The notes beneath the pieces were generated by a model that saw only the letters and a list, made by a program, of their open reading frames with translations, did no database searches and was not told the DNA's origin. Made by a program: the position numbers and the translations under genes. From NCBI RefSeq assembly GCF_001642935.1, contig NZ_CP016761.1:992001-1056000 (forward strand): 64,000 bases of DNA, in the 5' to 3' direction. Numbering within the stretch: position 1 is the first letter of the stretch; each line of letters opens with the position of its first letter. Shown here piece by piece: positions 4,276 to 54,500 of the stretch. The DNA comes from Fictibacillus arsenicus (GTDB taxonomy: Bacteria > Bacillota > Bacilli > Bacillales > Fictibacillaceae).

Positions 4276-4398
4276 ATTACTACTTAGAAGTGAAAAATTA
4301 CGGCTTAGAAAAAATATTTACGGCTTATAAATAAAAATTACGGCTTATAAAATAAAATTACAGCTTACAAATTTAAATTACGGTCTAGAAATTAGAAA
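4276..4398. repeat. Word array A1, period 20-21 bp, word ATTACGGCTTATAAA
   Basis: Six degenerate units between two terminators. The C of the TTAC core falls at 4280, 4301, 4321, 4341, 4361 and 4381. The conserved part reads roughly TTACGGCTTA and is followed by an A-rich variable half. No ORF is present. Confidence 0.8.
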
Positions 4399-8991: not shown

Positions 8992-9663
8992 CTATTTCAT
9001 TTTTCTTCGATACAGATCTCTAGATTTATAACCTTCACCCAAGATGTCTTCCATCTCAAGCAATCGCTTTTCTTGTGTCTCTTCTCGTTGGGCACTGTAT
9101 ACATAACGCGCCCAATCTTTTTGGTATCCGAATGTTAAACTAGTGTAAAAACTTAATAATTCAGCATTTTTTTCTAAATACCTTTTAATATCATCGACAT
9201 GGACGATATAGTCATCTACGCATTGGCTTTTTTTCGAGGGAGAAGCTGCTTTCTTTTTCTCGGATTTTAAACCAACCACAGTAAAAACATCATTTAAACT
9301 GACCATCCTGGAAAACTTCAAATTGCTTTCCGCTACAAAACCATCCTCACCAACATTTATGTAAGGGAAAATCTGATCCCGTTCGATGTATTCTTTATAT
9401 TGTGGATTATTCTTTTTAGGATAGGCGAAAAAAAGATATCCTTTGTCACTGAGCAGTTGTTTCTCAATAACTTTATGCAACTCGTTTGAGAACTCTTCTA
9501 GATTGAACACAAAAGCAAAGATCAGGTCGTATTTTTCTTTTTGAATGGAAGCATCAAAATCAATTTCTTTAAATTCATTGATGTCCCCGGGGAGATTAAG
9601 AATCAGCTTGCTTGCATATTTTCTAAGATTTAATTTATCGACGATGGATTTTGTAGAGTTCAT
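8992..9663 (-). CDS. DUF3052-like / YdeI-OmdA two-domain protein
   Basis: About 223 residues. The N-terminal half resembles the methyltransferase-like DUF3052 fold (LILNLPGD, YDLIFAFVFN, GYLFFAYPKK). The C-terminal part (YQKDWARYVYSAQREETQEKRLLEMEDIL) is the YdeI/OmpD-associated (OmdA) helical motif. The start at 9663 follows GGGAGG by 7 nt; the TTG at 9678 would contain that site. It lies directly downstream of the HAD hydrolase and ABC exporter genes and may share their transcript. The role of neither domain is firmly known. Confidence 0.7.
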   Translation of the reverse strand: MNSTKSIVDKLNLRKYASKLILNLPGDINEFKEIDFDASIQKEKYDLIFAFVFNLEEFSNELHKVIEKQLLSDKGYLFFAYPKKNNPQYKEYIERDQIFPYINVGEDGFVAESNLKFSRMVSLNDVFTVVGLKSEKKKAASPSKKSQCVDDYIVHVDDIKRYLEKNAELLSFYTSLTFGYQKDWARYVYSAQREETQEKRLLEMEDILGEGYKSRDLYRRKMK

Positions 9664-9694
9664 GGTTAGACCTCCCAATTTTTTTGTTAATGAA

Positions 9695-10399
9695 TTACTT
9701 CAGCAATAAGTCTCTTATATCCTTCACATCTGACACAATGGCATGAGGGGAATGATCGGTTGAAGGAACAGCACCTCGTGAATTAATCCAGATCGCATCG
9801 ATTCCTGCATCAATGGCTCCTGCTACATCATGAATCCAAGAGTCTCCAATAAAGATCGTTTCATCTGGCTTTATGCCAAAAAATTTCAATGGTGCATGAT
9901 AAAGCTCCAAATCTGGCTTCCTTAACCCTAATTCTTCCGAACAAAAGATGGTTTCGATTGGAAACACTTTCGATAATCCCATTTGATGCACTTTTTGACG
10001 TGGATCATAAAGAGCGTTCGTCACAATGCCAAGTTCGTAATGATTCCTCAAATCCATTAGAAGCTGAATCAGAGATGGATCTTGGTTAATACATGAAAAA
10101 CCTTTTTGTAAAAACAGATTTTCTATTCCATTGATGATCTCATCGTCAGGTGTCATATCAAAATGAGAAAAGGCATGTTTCCACCGTGCTCTTCGAAATT
10201 CCTGAGGCGTAAATTCACGATTCTTAAGCTTTTCGATCAAGTGGGATGGAACACGCAACTTTTTCTCAAGGAAAAGAGCTGCGTCTAAATTTTTCGTTAA
10301 AGGATGTTCACTGAGTATTTGAATCAATCCTGTTTTAAACCAGTCTGAATTTAGAAGGGTATCATCTAAATCAAACAAGAGCAGTTTATACTTCTTCAT
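9695..10399 (-). CDS. HAD-family hydrolase (YjjG/YfnB-like phosphatase)
   Basis: 234 residues. HAD motif I is FDLDDTLLNS with the nucleophile and acid/base Asp pair near residues 9 and 11, motif II is in LGIVTNA, motif III in GLRKPD, and motif IV in IFIGDSWIHD. The helical cap between motifs I and II is of the YjjG type, a family that removes phosphate from non-canonical nucleotides and small metabolites. Its start codon overlaps the stop of the ABC exporter gene by one base, so translation is coupled. Substrate uncertain. Confidence 0.85.
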   Translation of the reverse strand: MKKYKLLLFDLDDTLLNSDWFKTGLIQILSEHPLTKNLDAALFLEKKLRVPSHLIEKLKNREFTPQEFRRARWKHAFSHFDMTPDDEIINGIENLFLQKGFSCINQDPSLIQLLMDLRNHYELGIVTNALYDPRQKVHQMGLSKVFPIETIFCSEELGLRKPDLELYHAPLKFFGIKPDETIFIGDSWIHDVAGAIDAGIDAIWINSRGAVPSTDHSPHAIVSDVKDIRDLLLK

Positions 10400-14979: not shown

Positions 14980-15083
14980 AAACTAAATCATTTTTACAAG
15001 AAGTCAATAAGGTGAGCCGGTAGCAGATACTTTTGCGGTTTAACTTGTTGGCTTTTTACTTTGTAAAAACCTTTAGTATCTGT

Positions 15084-15240
15084 CTATGAGCCGAAACATA
15101 AGGTCTATGAACTTAACTAGTTACTCTATGAGTCAAGCTTTGGAATCTATGAGTCAAAATAAAAGCTCTATGAACCAAACGGATTTCTATGAGCCAAAAG
15201 GAATGCCCTATGAGTCAAACCGAACCGTCTATGAACTGTT
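15084..15240. repeat. Word array A2, period 21 bp, word CTATGAGYC
   Basis: Eight copies of CTATGA(G/A)(C/T)C begin at 15084, 15105, 15126, 15147, 15168, 15187, 15208 and 15229. All steps are 21 bp except one of 19. The 12 bases between words are variable, often starting AAA. The rest of 14980-15300 shows no ORF. Confidence 0.9.
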
Positions 15241-15311
15241 ATAAAAATGAAAATCAATTTACTCAATTTTCTAGGCAATAGCAAATAATTTAAAAACTTC
15301 TGAAAATTTTA

Positions 15312-20328: not shown

Positions 20329-20330
20329 TC

Positions 20331-20420
20331 TCACATCAATTTTTCGGTTGATCACATAATTTTAGCGGCTCATCACATAATTTCTGCGGTCAATCACATA
20401 AAAAAGTGGCAACATCACAT
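20331..20420. repeat. Word array A3, period 21 bp, word ATCACATAA
   Basis: TCACAT occurs at 20331, 20352, 20373, 20394 and 20415, exactly 21 bp apart. The 12-base gaps are variable but three contain GCGG or GTGG. The array starts 3 bp after the GNAT stop codon region. Confidence 0.9.
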
Positions 20421-20445
20421 AATTTAACATAATGTGGGAATTGAA

Positions 20446-21711: not shown

Positions 21712-22024
21712 TTAACAATAATTGGCTATGAAGAGAACGAGTAATTAAGCTGTATTATTTCCAGAGAGCTCTTGGTTGGTGTGAAAGAGCAATAATCGTC
21801 TTAATGAAAAAAGCCTCCGAGCTTTGTACGGATGCGAGGGGAACCTTGCTGATACTACAACGGGATCTCTCGTTACAGAGATAGGGTATATGCGAGTAAT
21901 TATTTTTCATTGCCGTACCTGAAGAGGTTGGCATGGCGACATGTTAACAAACTGAGGTGGTACCGCGAATGCTTATAAGCTCTCGTCCTCAAGATGAACA
22001 ATCTTGGGGGTGAGGGCTTTTTTG
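21712..22024 (+). ncRNA. Lysine-type T-box leader
   Basis: The leader contains the T-box sequence AACTGAGGTGGTACCGCG (21950-21967), which pairs with uncharged tRNA acceptor ends. It also has the stem I features GAAGAGAACGAGTA, CAGAGAGCTC and GGTGTGAAAGAGC, and ends with a strong terminator (about 21976-22024, AAGCTCTCGTCCTC pairing with GGGGGTGAGGGCTT, then seven T). The 3' side of stem I reads GAAAAAAGCC (21806-21815), offering AAA/AAG as specifier, which agrees with the downstream lysyl-tRNA synthetase gene. Uncharged tRNA-Lys should promote readthrough. Confidence 0.92.
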
Positions 22025-22075
22025 TTGTTTCTTGGCAGGGTATCAAAGCGGTGAGTTTTGTCAGAATTAGTCGAC

Positions 22076-22165
22076 TTGTGGTTATTTTTAAAATAACGTG
22101 CGATTTTTGTAATTAACGTGAGAAAAAAGCCAATTAACGTGCGATTATTTCAATTTATCGTGGGA
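22076..22165. repeat. Word array A4, period 20-21 bp, word AATTAACGTGCGATT
   Basis: The core (A/T)CGTG recurs at 22096, 22116, 22137 and 22158, with a weaker first copy (TTGTG) at 22076. It lies inside the transcribed region between the T-box terminator and the lysK start codon, so readthrough transcripts contain it. Confidence 0.8.
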
Positions 22166-22245
22166 TTCCTTGTAGGAATACCCAGTGAGGTAATAGTAAA
22201 AGCCGGTTCCACTCATTGGAACTGTCACTAACGAGGTGATGAAAG

Positions 22246-23790
22246 ATGCATTGGGCATATCGAATAGCAGAAGAATTAATTAGAAAACATCCGAATCACG
22301 ATACTTTTGTTTGTGCTTCGGGAATCAGTCCATCGGGTTCCGTACACATCGGTAACTTTCGTGAAGTTGTTACAACATATTTTGTAGTAAAAGCATTGCA
22401 GCAGATGGGGAAGAAAACACGCTTCATTTTTTCATGGGATGATTTTGACCGTTTTAGAAAAGTGCCAAAGAATTTGGATCCCTCTTTTGAACAATACATC
22501 GGAATGCCATACGCTGAGATACCTTGTCCATTTGGATGCCATAGCACATATGCGGAACATTTTGAAAAAGAGTTTGAAGAGTCGCTCCTACAATTTGGTA
22601 TTGTTCCAGAATTCATTTATCAAAGCGAAGAATATCGAGCAAAAAGGTACAACGTTCAGATTTTGCATGTATTAGAAAACAGAAAACAGATCTACGATAT
22701 TTTGATGGCTTATAAAACGGCAAAGCCAAATGAACAGGAACGAGAAAACTTTTATCCTGTAAATGTGTATTGCGATCGCTGCCGAAAAGATACGGTGAGT
22801 ATTACAAGCTTTCAAGAATGTCATTTAAGCTATACGTGTTCATGCGGTCATTCGAACACAGTAGAGATCATGGAAGCAACCAATATGAAATTAAACTGGA
22901 AAGTAGACTGGCCGATGCGATGGATGGTTGAGAATGTTGTGTTTGAACCAGGTGGGAGAGATCACTCTTCTGAAACTGGAAGTTATCGGGTATCAAAGGA
23001 AATTGCCATTGAGATTTTTTACCACCAAGCACCCACTTATAAGCCTTATGAATTTATCAGTATAAAAGGGACTGGGGAGAAGATGTCGAGTTCATCAGGG
23101 AACAACATCACTCCTGAAGAATTATTAAGGGTATACACACCGGAAATCATTCTGTTCATGTTTGCTAAATATCAACCGAATTCTGCTTTTCATATTGGTT
23201 TGGATGAGGATGTCATTCGAAACTATACGGAATATGAGCGTTTTAGAGAAGTTGATCCAGCTCAATTAAAAGAAGAGATAAAGGCTGCTTTATATTTCTC
23301 GGTTAAAAAAGAAAAACTGTTAAACGGTCCAAAATTCGCTCAAGTAGCCAGCATCTTGCCCCTTGTAAACTTTGATGCATTGCTAGTAAAAGATGTGCTA
23401 AACAGAATAGGGGAAGCTTTTTCTTTAGATGAAATTCAGAAAGTTTGTGAACGAGCGGAGTATTGGCTGCGAAATTGGTGTCCAGAAAAAGTATTGAATA
23501 TCAATAATCAAAAATACCATGTTTATTATGAGATGTTGACTAGTGTGGAGAAAGAATGGGTGCATGGTTTTACCGAAGTGTTGAAAAATGGTCCAGCGCT
23601 AGACGAAGAATTGATGAGAAACGTGTACGATATTTGCCACGACGATAATCCAAAAGTGAAAAGAAACAACCAAAAAAGGTTGTTTCAAATCATTTATCAG
23701 CTCATTTTGAATAACAACAGTGGTCCTCGAATTCCATTGTTGGTGCATGCAGTAGGTAAAGAGCGGTTACTATCATTGCTTGACTTTTAA
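22246..23790 (+). CDS. lysK: Class I lysyl-tRNA synthetase
   Basis: 514 residues, the usual size of archaeal-type class I LysRS. It charges tRNA-Lys in the cytoplasm. The HIGH-like motif is SGSVHIGN (residues 30-37), the KMSKS-like motif is KMSSSSGN (about 279-286), and paired cysteines (CDRC, CSCG, about 175-200) form the family's zinc element. The start at 22246 follows GAGGTG by 7 nt. Most bacteria use class II LysRS. Some Bacilli carry this class I enzyme as an extra copy under T-box control, which fits the leader found here. Whether a class II gene exists elsewhere cannot be seen. Confidence 0.93.
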   Translation: MHWAYRIAEELIRKHPNHDTFVCASGISPSGSVHIGNFREVVTTYFVVKALQQMGKKTRFIFSWDDFDRFRKVPKNLDPSFEQYIGMPYAEIPCPFGCHSTYAEHFEKEFEESLLQFGIVPEFIYQSEEYRAKRYNVQILHVLENRKQIYDILMAYKTAKPNEQERENFYPVNVYCDRCRKDTVSITSFQECHLSYTCSCGHSNTVEIMEATNMKLNWKVDWPMRWMVENVVFEPGGRDHSSETGSYRVSKEIAIEIFYHQAPTYKPYEFISIKGTGEKMSSSSGNNITPEELLRVYTPEIILFMFAKYQPNSAFHIGLDEDVIRNYTEYERFREVDPAQLKEEIKAALYFSVKKEKLLNGPKFAQVASILPLVNFDALLVKDVLNRIGEAFSLDEIQKVCERAEYWLRNWCPEKVLNINNQKYHVYYEMLTSVEKEWVHGFTEVLKNGPALDEELMRNVYDICHDDNPKVKRNNQKRLFQIIYQLILNNNSGPRIPLLVHAVGKERLLSLLDF

Positions 23791-27613: not shown

Positions 27614-27682
27614 TGAATCTTCAAAACTCGTTATTTTTAAGTAGTGATATTACTTTGAACTACTTTTTAATGGAGTTTTTTC

Positions 27683-27844
27683 GGGTAAAGAGAGCCATGG
27701 GGCGAAAACAAGGGCGCATCGGGTGAAACGGATAAGTTTCGGGGTGGAAGTAAGTCATATTGGGTGGAACGAGCCTTCTGAAGGGTGAAACTCCACCTAG
27801 ACCGGGCGAACATGTAATAAATAAAAGAACACGTACCGTAAAAA
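27683..27844. repeat. Word array A5, period 21 bp, word GGGYGAAAC, with conserved 41-bp tail
   Basis: GGGTGAAAC-like words begin at 27683, 27700, 27721, 27742, 27762, 27783 and 27804. The last unit runs into a 41-bp tail (27804-27844) containing GAACACGTACCGTAAAAA. That tail matches the tail of array A6 (36098-36138) at 38 of 41 positions. The rest of the 573-bp gap 27386-27958 holds the fdhF promoter and leader. Confidence 0.9.
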
Positions 27845-27958
27845 GTATCTAGTCTCAAACAAAAAGCTGCATAGCAATAATAAGAATTTTTCACGTGCGA
27901 AAAGTAAGTACATCATGTATGATTAGTAAAAAATGGAGAAACAGTGGTGATGGTTTAA

Positions 27959-35992: not shown

Positions 35993-36138
35993 GGGCGAAA
36001 CTAAAGCTTCATCGGGTGAAACCAAAGAATGACAGGGCGAAACATCAGGTACTCGGGGTGCAACTCAAGGTAGTTGGGGCGAAAACCGAAACAATTGGGG
36101 CGAACGTGTAATAGATATAAGAACACGTACCGTAAAAA
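35993..36138. repeat. Word array A6, period exactly 21 bp, word GGGYGAAAC, same tail as A5
   Basis: GGG(C/T)G(A/C)AA(C/A) words begin at 35993, 36014, 36035, 36056, 36077 and 36098: five successive steps of exactly 21 bp. The final unit continues into the 41-bp tail 36098-36138 shared with array A5. Confidence 0.93.
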
Positions 36139-44510: not shown

Positions 44511-44563
44511 TTTTTTTGTTGCAATAATTAGCGGCTCGACCTGCAGATCGTATTTAGTAAAAC

Positions 44564-44654
44564 TCGCGGATATATAGTAAAAACTCGCGGAATTATTGCA
44601 ATAATTCGCGGGATTATGAATTAAACTCGCGGGAATATCACAAAAATTTCAGGA
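44564..44654. repeat. Word array A7, period 21 bp, word AAACTCGCGGAA
   Basis: TCGCGG begins at 44564, 44585, 44606 and 44627, exactly 21 bp apart. A decayed copy (TCAGG) follows at 44649. It begins about 50 bp outside the right inverted repeat. The remaining non-coding stretch to 44915 shows nothing I can name. Confidence 0.9.
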
Positions 44655-44915
44655 ATTATAGGTTTTGAAAGACAAAAACAAGCTTAGAGGACGTAAAACT
44701 GTCTACCTTTTATTAGATTTTGAAGCGAATCCACTCTGAATAGATATTTTTTATGATCATTTTCTTATGAATTGCATGTGTAGGTACAATGTTTGGCTTC
44801 GGTTTGTCATTCTTGCAAAAAACTAATCAACTAAGTTGCACAATAATTATACAAAGATTTAACAATGTGGTTATGGGGTAATGTAAAATAAATCTATGAA
44901 AAGGGTGATGCTGTT

Positions 44916-54445: not shown

Positions 54446-54500
54446 AAACTCGTGGATAAAATACTAAAACTTTTGGATTCATCTATAAAACTTTTGGATT
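54446..54500. repeat. Word array A8, period 21 bp, word AAACTTTTGGATT
   Basis: Three units begin at 54446 (AAACTCGTGGAT), 54467 (AAACTTTTGGATT) and 54488 (AAACTTTTGGATT), exactly 21 bp apart. The first unit resembles the A7 word AAACTCGCGGA. Confidence 0.75.

Follow-up and report, generated by a model that had tools for sequence, protein, structure and literature searches.

The window, a stretch of 64,000 nucleotides of the Fictibacillus arsenicus chromosome, contains eight intergenic arrays in which a short word recurs as a direct repeat. All eight lie between open reading frames of at least 100 amino acids, and the genes flanking them encode a LacI-type regulator, a gluconolactonase-like protein, acetyltransferases, a deaminase, a lysyl-tRNA synthetase (LysRS), an oxidoreductase and MpsC, endonuclease I, DctP and others. 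The arrays had been pointed out in an earlier note on this DNA, and all of them were confirmed by motif search or direct reading; with motif search and chain search taken together, a recurring word is present at eight of eight places. The elements are the following (steps in bp):

4276–4398, forward strand: six copies of ATTACGGCTTA-like words in a convergent gap, steps 21, 20, 20, 20, 20
15083–15241, forward strand: F1 element, eight words TCTATG(A/C)RYC(AAA), steps 21, 21, 21, 21, 19, 21, 21
20330–20424, forward strand: F4 array, five copies of ATCACATAA words, every step 21
22091–22166, forward strand: F5 array, four copies of AACGTGCGATT words from 22095, steps 20, 21, 21
27700–27811, forward strand: F3 array, six copies of GGGYGAAAC words, from chain search, steps 21, 21, 20, 21, 21
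27808–27842, forward strand: end block of the F3 element, variant ACATGT..ACACGT
35993–36106, forward strand: F3 array, six copies of GGGYGAAAC words, steps 21
36102–36136, forward strand: end block GAACGTGTAATAGATATAAGAACACGTACCGTAAA, common to F2, F3 and F10 elements
44561–44657, forward strand: F6 array, four copies of AAACTCGCGGA words and one decayed copy, steps 21
54446–54500, forward strand: three copies of AAACTYKKGGAT words, from motif search only, steps 21, 21

By word motif search the step is 19–21 bp and mostly 21 bp, and the constant 21-bp step of the earlier note therefore holds for the majority of steps and not strictly, as the array at 4276 uses mostly 20 bp and that at 27683 mixes 20 and 21 bp. 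One decayed word lies 5' of the F3 chain at 27700, and the motif search at 27683 gave the irregular steps 17, 12, 30, 20, 21 and 21. The second F3 array has five words by motif and a sixth at 36098 that merges into the end block, while the chain search recovered three only. The array at 54446 was not recovered by the chain search of the window; it is the weakest of the eight and on its own too short to convince. Because the words at 27683 and 35993 form one family and those at 44564 and 54446 are related as judged by eye, the words are family-specific and not locus-specific as had been claimed; they belong to several dispersed families of fixed anatomy.

The F5 array sits between a T-box leader (21719–21993) and the gene of a class I LysRS; this LysRS behind its T-box (21719–23790) finds a match in only 14 of the 18 genomes of the genus, one match being partial. 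The F3 array at 27700–27811 is absent in relatives as part of a larger missing block around 27640–27920, which by eye includes a terminator-like hairpin 5' of the array. Among the 16 genes beside the window arrays there is none of a replication or partition family, which remains compatible with a distant gene, and three of the 16 are ordinary regulators of LacI, ArsR and AraC types. A regulon was rejected for the window, as the flanking genes are unrelated.

The period and the word families

The period was scanned in 864 kb of the single-contig genome of 4,055,461 bases, made up of 464 kb including the window and a further 400 kb. The intergenic set comprised 469 pieces (133,062 bp), for which genes were called with the arrays masked, a procedure that biases arrays towards intergenic sequence. 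A chain was defined by at least four 8-mers with at most one mismatch, and with the 1-bp tolerance allowed a single array is counted at adjacent periods. Six chains were found at period 19, 42 at period 20, 37 at period 21, 13 at period 22 and eight at period 41; no other period between 10 and 60 had more than one. Dinucleotide-preserving shuffles (n = 20) gave a mean of zero chains at all nine periods tried. For the 864-kb sample the scan proposed in the earlier note thus bears out the periodicity, with a peak at 19–22 bp for chains of at least four word copies in both sampled regions; the peak lies at the same periods in sampled regions of other Fictibacillus. In this sample, window included, the scan lists 42 arrays, about one per 20 kb, of which at least two (3473707 and 3531868) look protein-coding and were kept out of the rate test described below. 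The repeat at 3531868–3531996 has a 21-bp unit and looks like a coding sequence with seven-residue repeats, a false positive for the class. Coding repeats were rejected as an explanation, as many steps of 19 or 20 bp would break the reading frame.

Sixteen genomes of other Bacillales, sampled in 17 stretches of 20 kb, yielded six period-21 arrays; these lie in two genomes (L241 and L248), and one of the six is an A-rich run. Some arrays are longer than those of the window: about 28 units by eye in L241:4990–5560, 27 units by chain in L241:11650–12220, more than 20 units by eye in L248:12490–12980 and 14 units in L200:207–479, the last made of nearly perfect units of exactly 20 bp; some long arrays contain higher-order block duplications. 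F2-type arrays in L144 and L167 alternate TTGAGCGAAAA and GGTTCGACAAG word types with a super-period of about 41 bp, which may bear on the period-41 peak.

At least eight word families were grouped by eye in the sampled genome. The words are TCTATGNRYCAAA in F1, TTTGAGCGAAAC in F2, GGGYGAAAC in F3, TGCGTGAAAC in F10, TTACTGTCCACTTT in A and TAATCTGTCCAATT in B, and AT-richer families have the words ATCACATAA, ATCCCACGTTA, AAACTCGCGGA, TTACGGCTTA and others. With words of 9–14 bp in units of 19–21 bp, the arrays differ from CRISPR arrays, which are recognised by a long repeat and unique spacers of at least 20 nt, and the likening of the gaps to miniature CRISPR-like spacers found no support.

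Several families are elements of fixed size and not open-ended repeats. F1 has exactly eight words in 16 of 27 arrays (fetched loci, orthologues included), and of these 16 copies 14 have the 19-bp step in the fifth gap and the other two have it in the fourth; the step vector 21, 21, 21, 21, 19, 21, 21 is exact in 12 of the 27 arrays, orthologues included, and these 12 copies, some of them orthologues, have a mean identity of 45% in the spacers and 77% in the words. F2 has exactly six words in 65 of 95 arrays with a mean step of 20.4 bp, and the step is 21 bp in 90 of 91 cases for A arrays and in 79 of 80 for B arrays, orthologues being included in each of these counts. The family counts are not a census, since many loci were fetched for holding an end block or a word pair. 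In the unit profiles of F1, A and B the word is followed by five to eight columns of 0.0–0.4 bit. Outside the words, the 16 eight-word F1 copies show only scattered A or T columns, one above 0.9 bit, and in 64 F2 copies the left flank is without conservation and the right end block is conserved.

Elements of F2, F3 and F10 terminate in this common block, which is close to GAACGTGTAAYARATNNNAGAACACGTACCGTAAA. It contains ACGTGT-N13-ACACGT (36102–36136, 27808–27842 and many relatives), varies little among copies and among several word families, and from its sequence looks like a palindromic, putative protein site. Its core occurs with zero mismatches in 14 of the 18 genomes of the genus, and a scan of named genomes gave 108 stretches, all from Fictibacillus. 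The sampled genome has 23 end-block matches, of which 18 point with the replication forks on the assumption that the contig start is the origin, a figure given as a count only. Genes, too, generally point with replication forks, and replication polarity was set aside as an explanation.

A and B arrays are often composite, with two inverted arrays flanking a centre of about 85–110 bp. In composites with GTGGACAGTA and TAATCTGTCC words (L270:1560–1880, L282:1840–2150, L273:1660–1930 and L276:1950–2230) the outer flanks are partly complementary by eye, so that the whole could form a long hairpin. At 3549547–3552411 of the sampled genome, two arrays of the same word lie in opposite orientation about 2.7 kb apart; in the sister strain BK138 the first of these two places is occupied by another word.

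Divergence and turnover of words

Divergence was counted separately in words, spacers and flanks. From 50 array/relative pairs, 30 were dropped before counting, namely 13 at locus 1019700 and one at 3461122 (array absent or different), 11 at 1014093, two at 1012331, one as coding and two for length; six of the other 20 were dropped for an array difference above 30%. In the resulting 14 orthologous pairs (13 loci) the words differ at 19 of 624 positions (3.0%), the spacers at 105 of 793 (13.2%) and the flanks at 435 of 2983 (14.6%), and the words are less diverged than the spacers in 14 of 14 pairs (Fisher's test, words versus spacers 2.2e-12, spacers versus flanks 0.36). Since the words in this test had been found by similarity inside their own genome, the count was repeated with words defined in the relative, which was possible for 12 pairs and gave 20 of 552 for words, 86 of 711 for spacers and 354 of 2548 for flanks. 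With the six very different pairs kept, the counts are 108 of 853, 246 of 1073 and 745 of 4219, and the words are slower in 18 of 20 pairs. A second species group, formed by the species with A and B words and thus grouped by words and not by tree, gave 14 of 528 for words, 127 of 1131 for spacers and 149 of 1994 for flanks (eight pairs, three loci); here spacer divergence (11.2%) is higher than flank divergence (7.5%), possibly due to gene ends within the flanks. Given 3.0% divergence in words against 13.2% in spacers and 14.6% in flanks, the words look like selected sites and the spacer sequence looks close to neutral. The rates of short indels in arrays and flanks were 0.0035 and 0.0067 (p = 0.28) and, in a further comparison, 0.0036 and 0.0055 (p = 0.47), with no significant depletion, and the constancy of spacer length therefore rests on the period scan and the step counts.

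The words also change as whole sets. A comparison between strains, which the earlier note had likewise suggested, shows different words at orthologous sites in BK138 and in relatives: at three orthologous sites, six-word TTGAGCG arrays of the sampled genome stand against TGCGTGAAAC-type arrays in BK138, followed by the same end block. The gap behind the LysRS gene holds an array in 10 of 12 relatives, five with TACTGTCCAC and five with TAATCTGTCC, and L190, which has the TAATCTGTCC word, shares its right flank CCATTCGA.AA with the species of the TACTGTCCAC word. One convergent gap is occupied, depending on the species, by F10, by F2/F3, by A, by A+B, by nothing or by an unrelated repeat, and a second gap by F1, by A+B, by nothing or by the unrelated repeat. 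Whole word sets thus differ between orthologous sites, with which new insertion and concerted change in place are both compatible. Another dispersed repeat, with CCGCGGGGC and CGGTGAGCC motifs, fills the same gaps in L299, L308, L309 and L190 around 9500–9800.

The spread of words differs between families. The F2 pair pattern was found in five of 299 genomes of the order, all of one genus, yet it is common to several species. The F1 word pair pattern was found in seven of 249 Bacillales genomes, in only two genera of two families (among 105 genera), and a reversed F1 control pattern had no match in the same 249 genomes. In the other family one genome has 170 matches to the F1 pattern, a second has 14 and a third of the same genus has none. 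The presence of the 12-bp F1 word, similarly spaced, in families so distant suggests joint transfer or common descent of the word and its putative reader.

The arrays recall REP and MITE elements in being dispersed, intergenic and near gene ends. They could be non-autonomous mobile elements of this type, with the words as sites of a transposase or recombinase and with copies that spread into tolerated gaps beside terminators. The change of occupant in one gap from F10 to F2/F3, A, A+B or none by species would fit, as would an F1 array that is missing in a relative with 97–98% identical flanks, the inverted arrays of the A+B composites around a centre of about 100 bp, and the common spacers of many F2 copies, which imply a fairly recent spread. 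However, beyond their words the 16 F1 copies with eight words have no terminal sequence in common, and the empty sites inspected show no clear target-site duplication, the only candidate being an ambiguous TAA at the empty F1 site. Unlike what is expected of REP/MITE elements, where a dead copy should decay, the words are conserved at fixed places and look selected there. A plasmid search with one F1 array and one composite and a phage search with one F3 array gave no match, which for these three arrays speaks against a plasmid or phage origin, and a loose F1 pair pattern in viral contigs gave 62 stretches, possibly by chance. Taken together, we consider an origin of the arrays as mobile elements unlikely.

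Genomic place, direction and RNA fold

Of 103 arrays, a set that includes orthologues and 26 arrays of no named family and is therefore not independent, 36 lie in convergent, 55 in tandem and 12 in divergent gaps, compared with 63, 221 and 102 among 386 background gaps of at least 100 bp from the sampled genome only. Arrays are thus enriched in convergent gaps and scarce in divergent ones. In tandem gaps 29 arrays point with transcription and 14 against it (p = 0.03); by family, the counts are four and four for F1 and 15 and seven for F2. By eye, many arrays lie 3' of a terminator and not 5' of it.

The mean fold z in sense and antisense direction is −0.55 and −0.07 for F2 (n = 12), 0.34 and −0.75 for F1 (n = 8) and 1.08 and −0.39 for the LysRS arrays (n = 3). 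A z of −2 or below was found in seven of 68 strand folds (five of 34 single arrays on a strand) and a z above 2 in one, and the strongest single-array fold is that of the window array at 44564 (z −3.36). On average the RNA fold of single arrays does not go beyond that of shuffles, and nine inverted composites have a mean fold z of −3, as implied by their inverted arms. An Rfam search of the window and of seven loci, run at gathering thresholds, found only the T-box, the arrays being without a match.

These data bear on a role at the RNA level, in which transcribed arrays would act as sponges or as 3'-UTR sites for an RNA-binding protein or a small RNA. The arrays are situated behind genes, and one of them follows the LysRS stop codon and precedes the terminator of that gene in 10 of 12 relatives. 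The direction of arrays in tandem gaps leans with transcription, the fold of a few single arrays is stronger than in shuffles, and the 52-nt repeats of B. coagulans are stated to be transcribed (PMC8161180). The lean of F2 (15 versus seven) is likewise what an RNA role would predict. On the other side stand the mixed direction of F1, the many arrays that follow a terminator, mean fold values near zero and the Rfam result, and we regard a function as RNA as quite improbable. Because array direction is only weakly tied to transcription, DNA is favoured over RNA, and on balance place, direction and fold favour sites on DNA and disfavour promoter control.

Neutral minisatellites, in which slippage would favour units of two helical turns and the words would just mark the duplicated unit, fit the eight of eight array indels of at least 15 bp that are 20, 21 or 42 bp long and the long regular arrays of relatives, such as those of 14 units in L200 and of 27 units in L241, but they are disfavoured by the word/spacer rate contrast, as even divergence would be expected and the words are about fourfold slower than the spacers, as well as by the nearly fixed unit number and odd 19-bp step of F1 and by the 12-bp F1 word in a second bacterial family, which makes them very improbable.

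Known repeats and a proposed reading

The earlier note knew of no described family of this form. Subirana and Messeguer (2021) describe bacterial tandem repeats of constant 20–21 nt size, variable sequence and unknown function in Bacillus (PMC8161180), and the arrays reported here belong to that kind of repeat. According to that study, 176 Bacillus genomes contain 781 arrays of 20–21 nt units and 1886 of 51–53 nt units, the repeats are generally non-coding and form species-specific families with short characteristic signals, and the authors point out the two helical turns and propose nucleoid proteins or small RNAs (PMC8161180). The unit of 20–21 nt is shared with the Fictibacillus arrays, to which F1 adds a regular 19-bp step, and so are the several families of the same size per genome, the conserved short word per array and the non-coding location; the signal TCGCGG listed for the 21-nt repeats of B. 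weihaiensis (Table 2 of PMC8161180) forms the core of the word found at 44564 in the window. Relative to the text of PMC8161180 covered here and to the literature searched for the array words and for Fictibacillus intergenic repeats (PMC6749651 in part), several features of the arrays are new: the contrast of rates between word and spacer, an anatomy in which the copy number is fixed and one step is off-phase, the common end block, the composites of inverted arrays, and the different words that orthologous sites carry. Marine Beggiatoaceae and others have TAACTGA direct repeats that are likewise numerous, intergenic, built on a short word and of unknown function (MacGregor, 2015; PMC4679880). 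They consist of one heptamer that in the main genome lies mostly just upstream of start codons, unlike the many words of Fictibacillus with few arrays in divergent gaps.

The arrays may well be rows of direct sites for cooperative, sequence-specific DNA-binding proteins as candidate readers, a reading to which we give an even chance. Each array would offer about four to eight sites on which a protein would assemble head to tail, with one protomer or dimer per two helical turns; the word of 9–14 bp would be read by the protein and the remainder of the 21 bp would set the distance only. Different word families would be read by different, probably related, proteins, so that one sequence would be common to all words within an array and within the copies of that array elsewhere. 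Plasmid iterons and partition-site repeats are direct repeats that are read by a cooperative DNA-binding protein. By analogy, the arrays are proposed to work like these; they are, however, chromosomal, dispersed and present in many copies, none of the eight in the window is flanked by a gene for replication or partition, and the two arrays tried are without a plasmid match. As the arrays lie mostly behind genes and many are beside terminators, a role as chromosome-scale or 3'-end anchors, concerned with nucleoid, topology or domains, would be more likely than promoter control.

The scaffold for a cooperative DNA-binding or nucleoid protein suggested in the earlier note fits the apparently selected words and near-neutral spacers; the protein reader itself, its action on DNA, its cooperativity and its role we infer from the observed period, the fixed anatomy, the slow words and flank-like spacers, the scarcity in divergent gaps, the average lack of a single-array fold and the differences of whole word sets. 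That all words face one side of the helix agrees with the phasing near 21 bp and does not hold strictly, given the mean step of 20.4 bp in F2 and the relative with 14 units of exactly 20 bp, as steps of about 20 bp let long arrays drift round the helix.

A bolder form of the DNA-binding reading, which we put forward tentatively and think rather doubtful, is an order-wide family of fast-diverging, lineage-swapped DNA-binding proteins. Each of them would have its own word and would build, at gene 3' ends, a nucleoprotein body of constant size. The bodies together would form a dispersed system comparable to a centromere or boundary, in which selection would keep the sites in place and a change of the protein would bring new letters to the whole set. 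The bodies would then comprise eight sites with one off-phase joint, six sites with an end block, or two inverted arms.

For repeats of constant size and variable sequence it has been an open puzzle whether the length alone is meaningful or the letters are too. The rate contrast suggests that the letters matter in the words, as functional sites, whereas the spacers act as rulers. The F1 element, with its eight words in about 160 bp, is a defined unit short enough to serve as bait for the putative reader. If the reader is indeed a family of cooperative DNA-binding proteins, the arrays would represent an unrecognised layer of Bacillales chromosome organisation.
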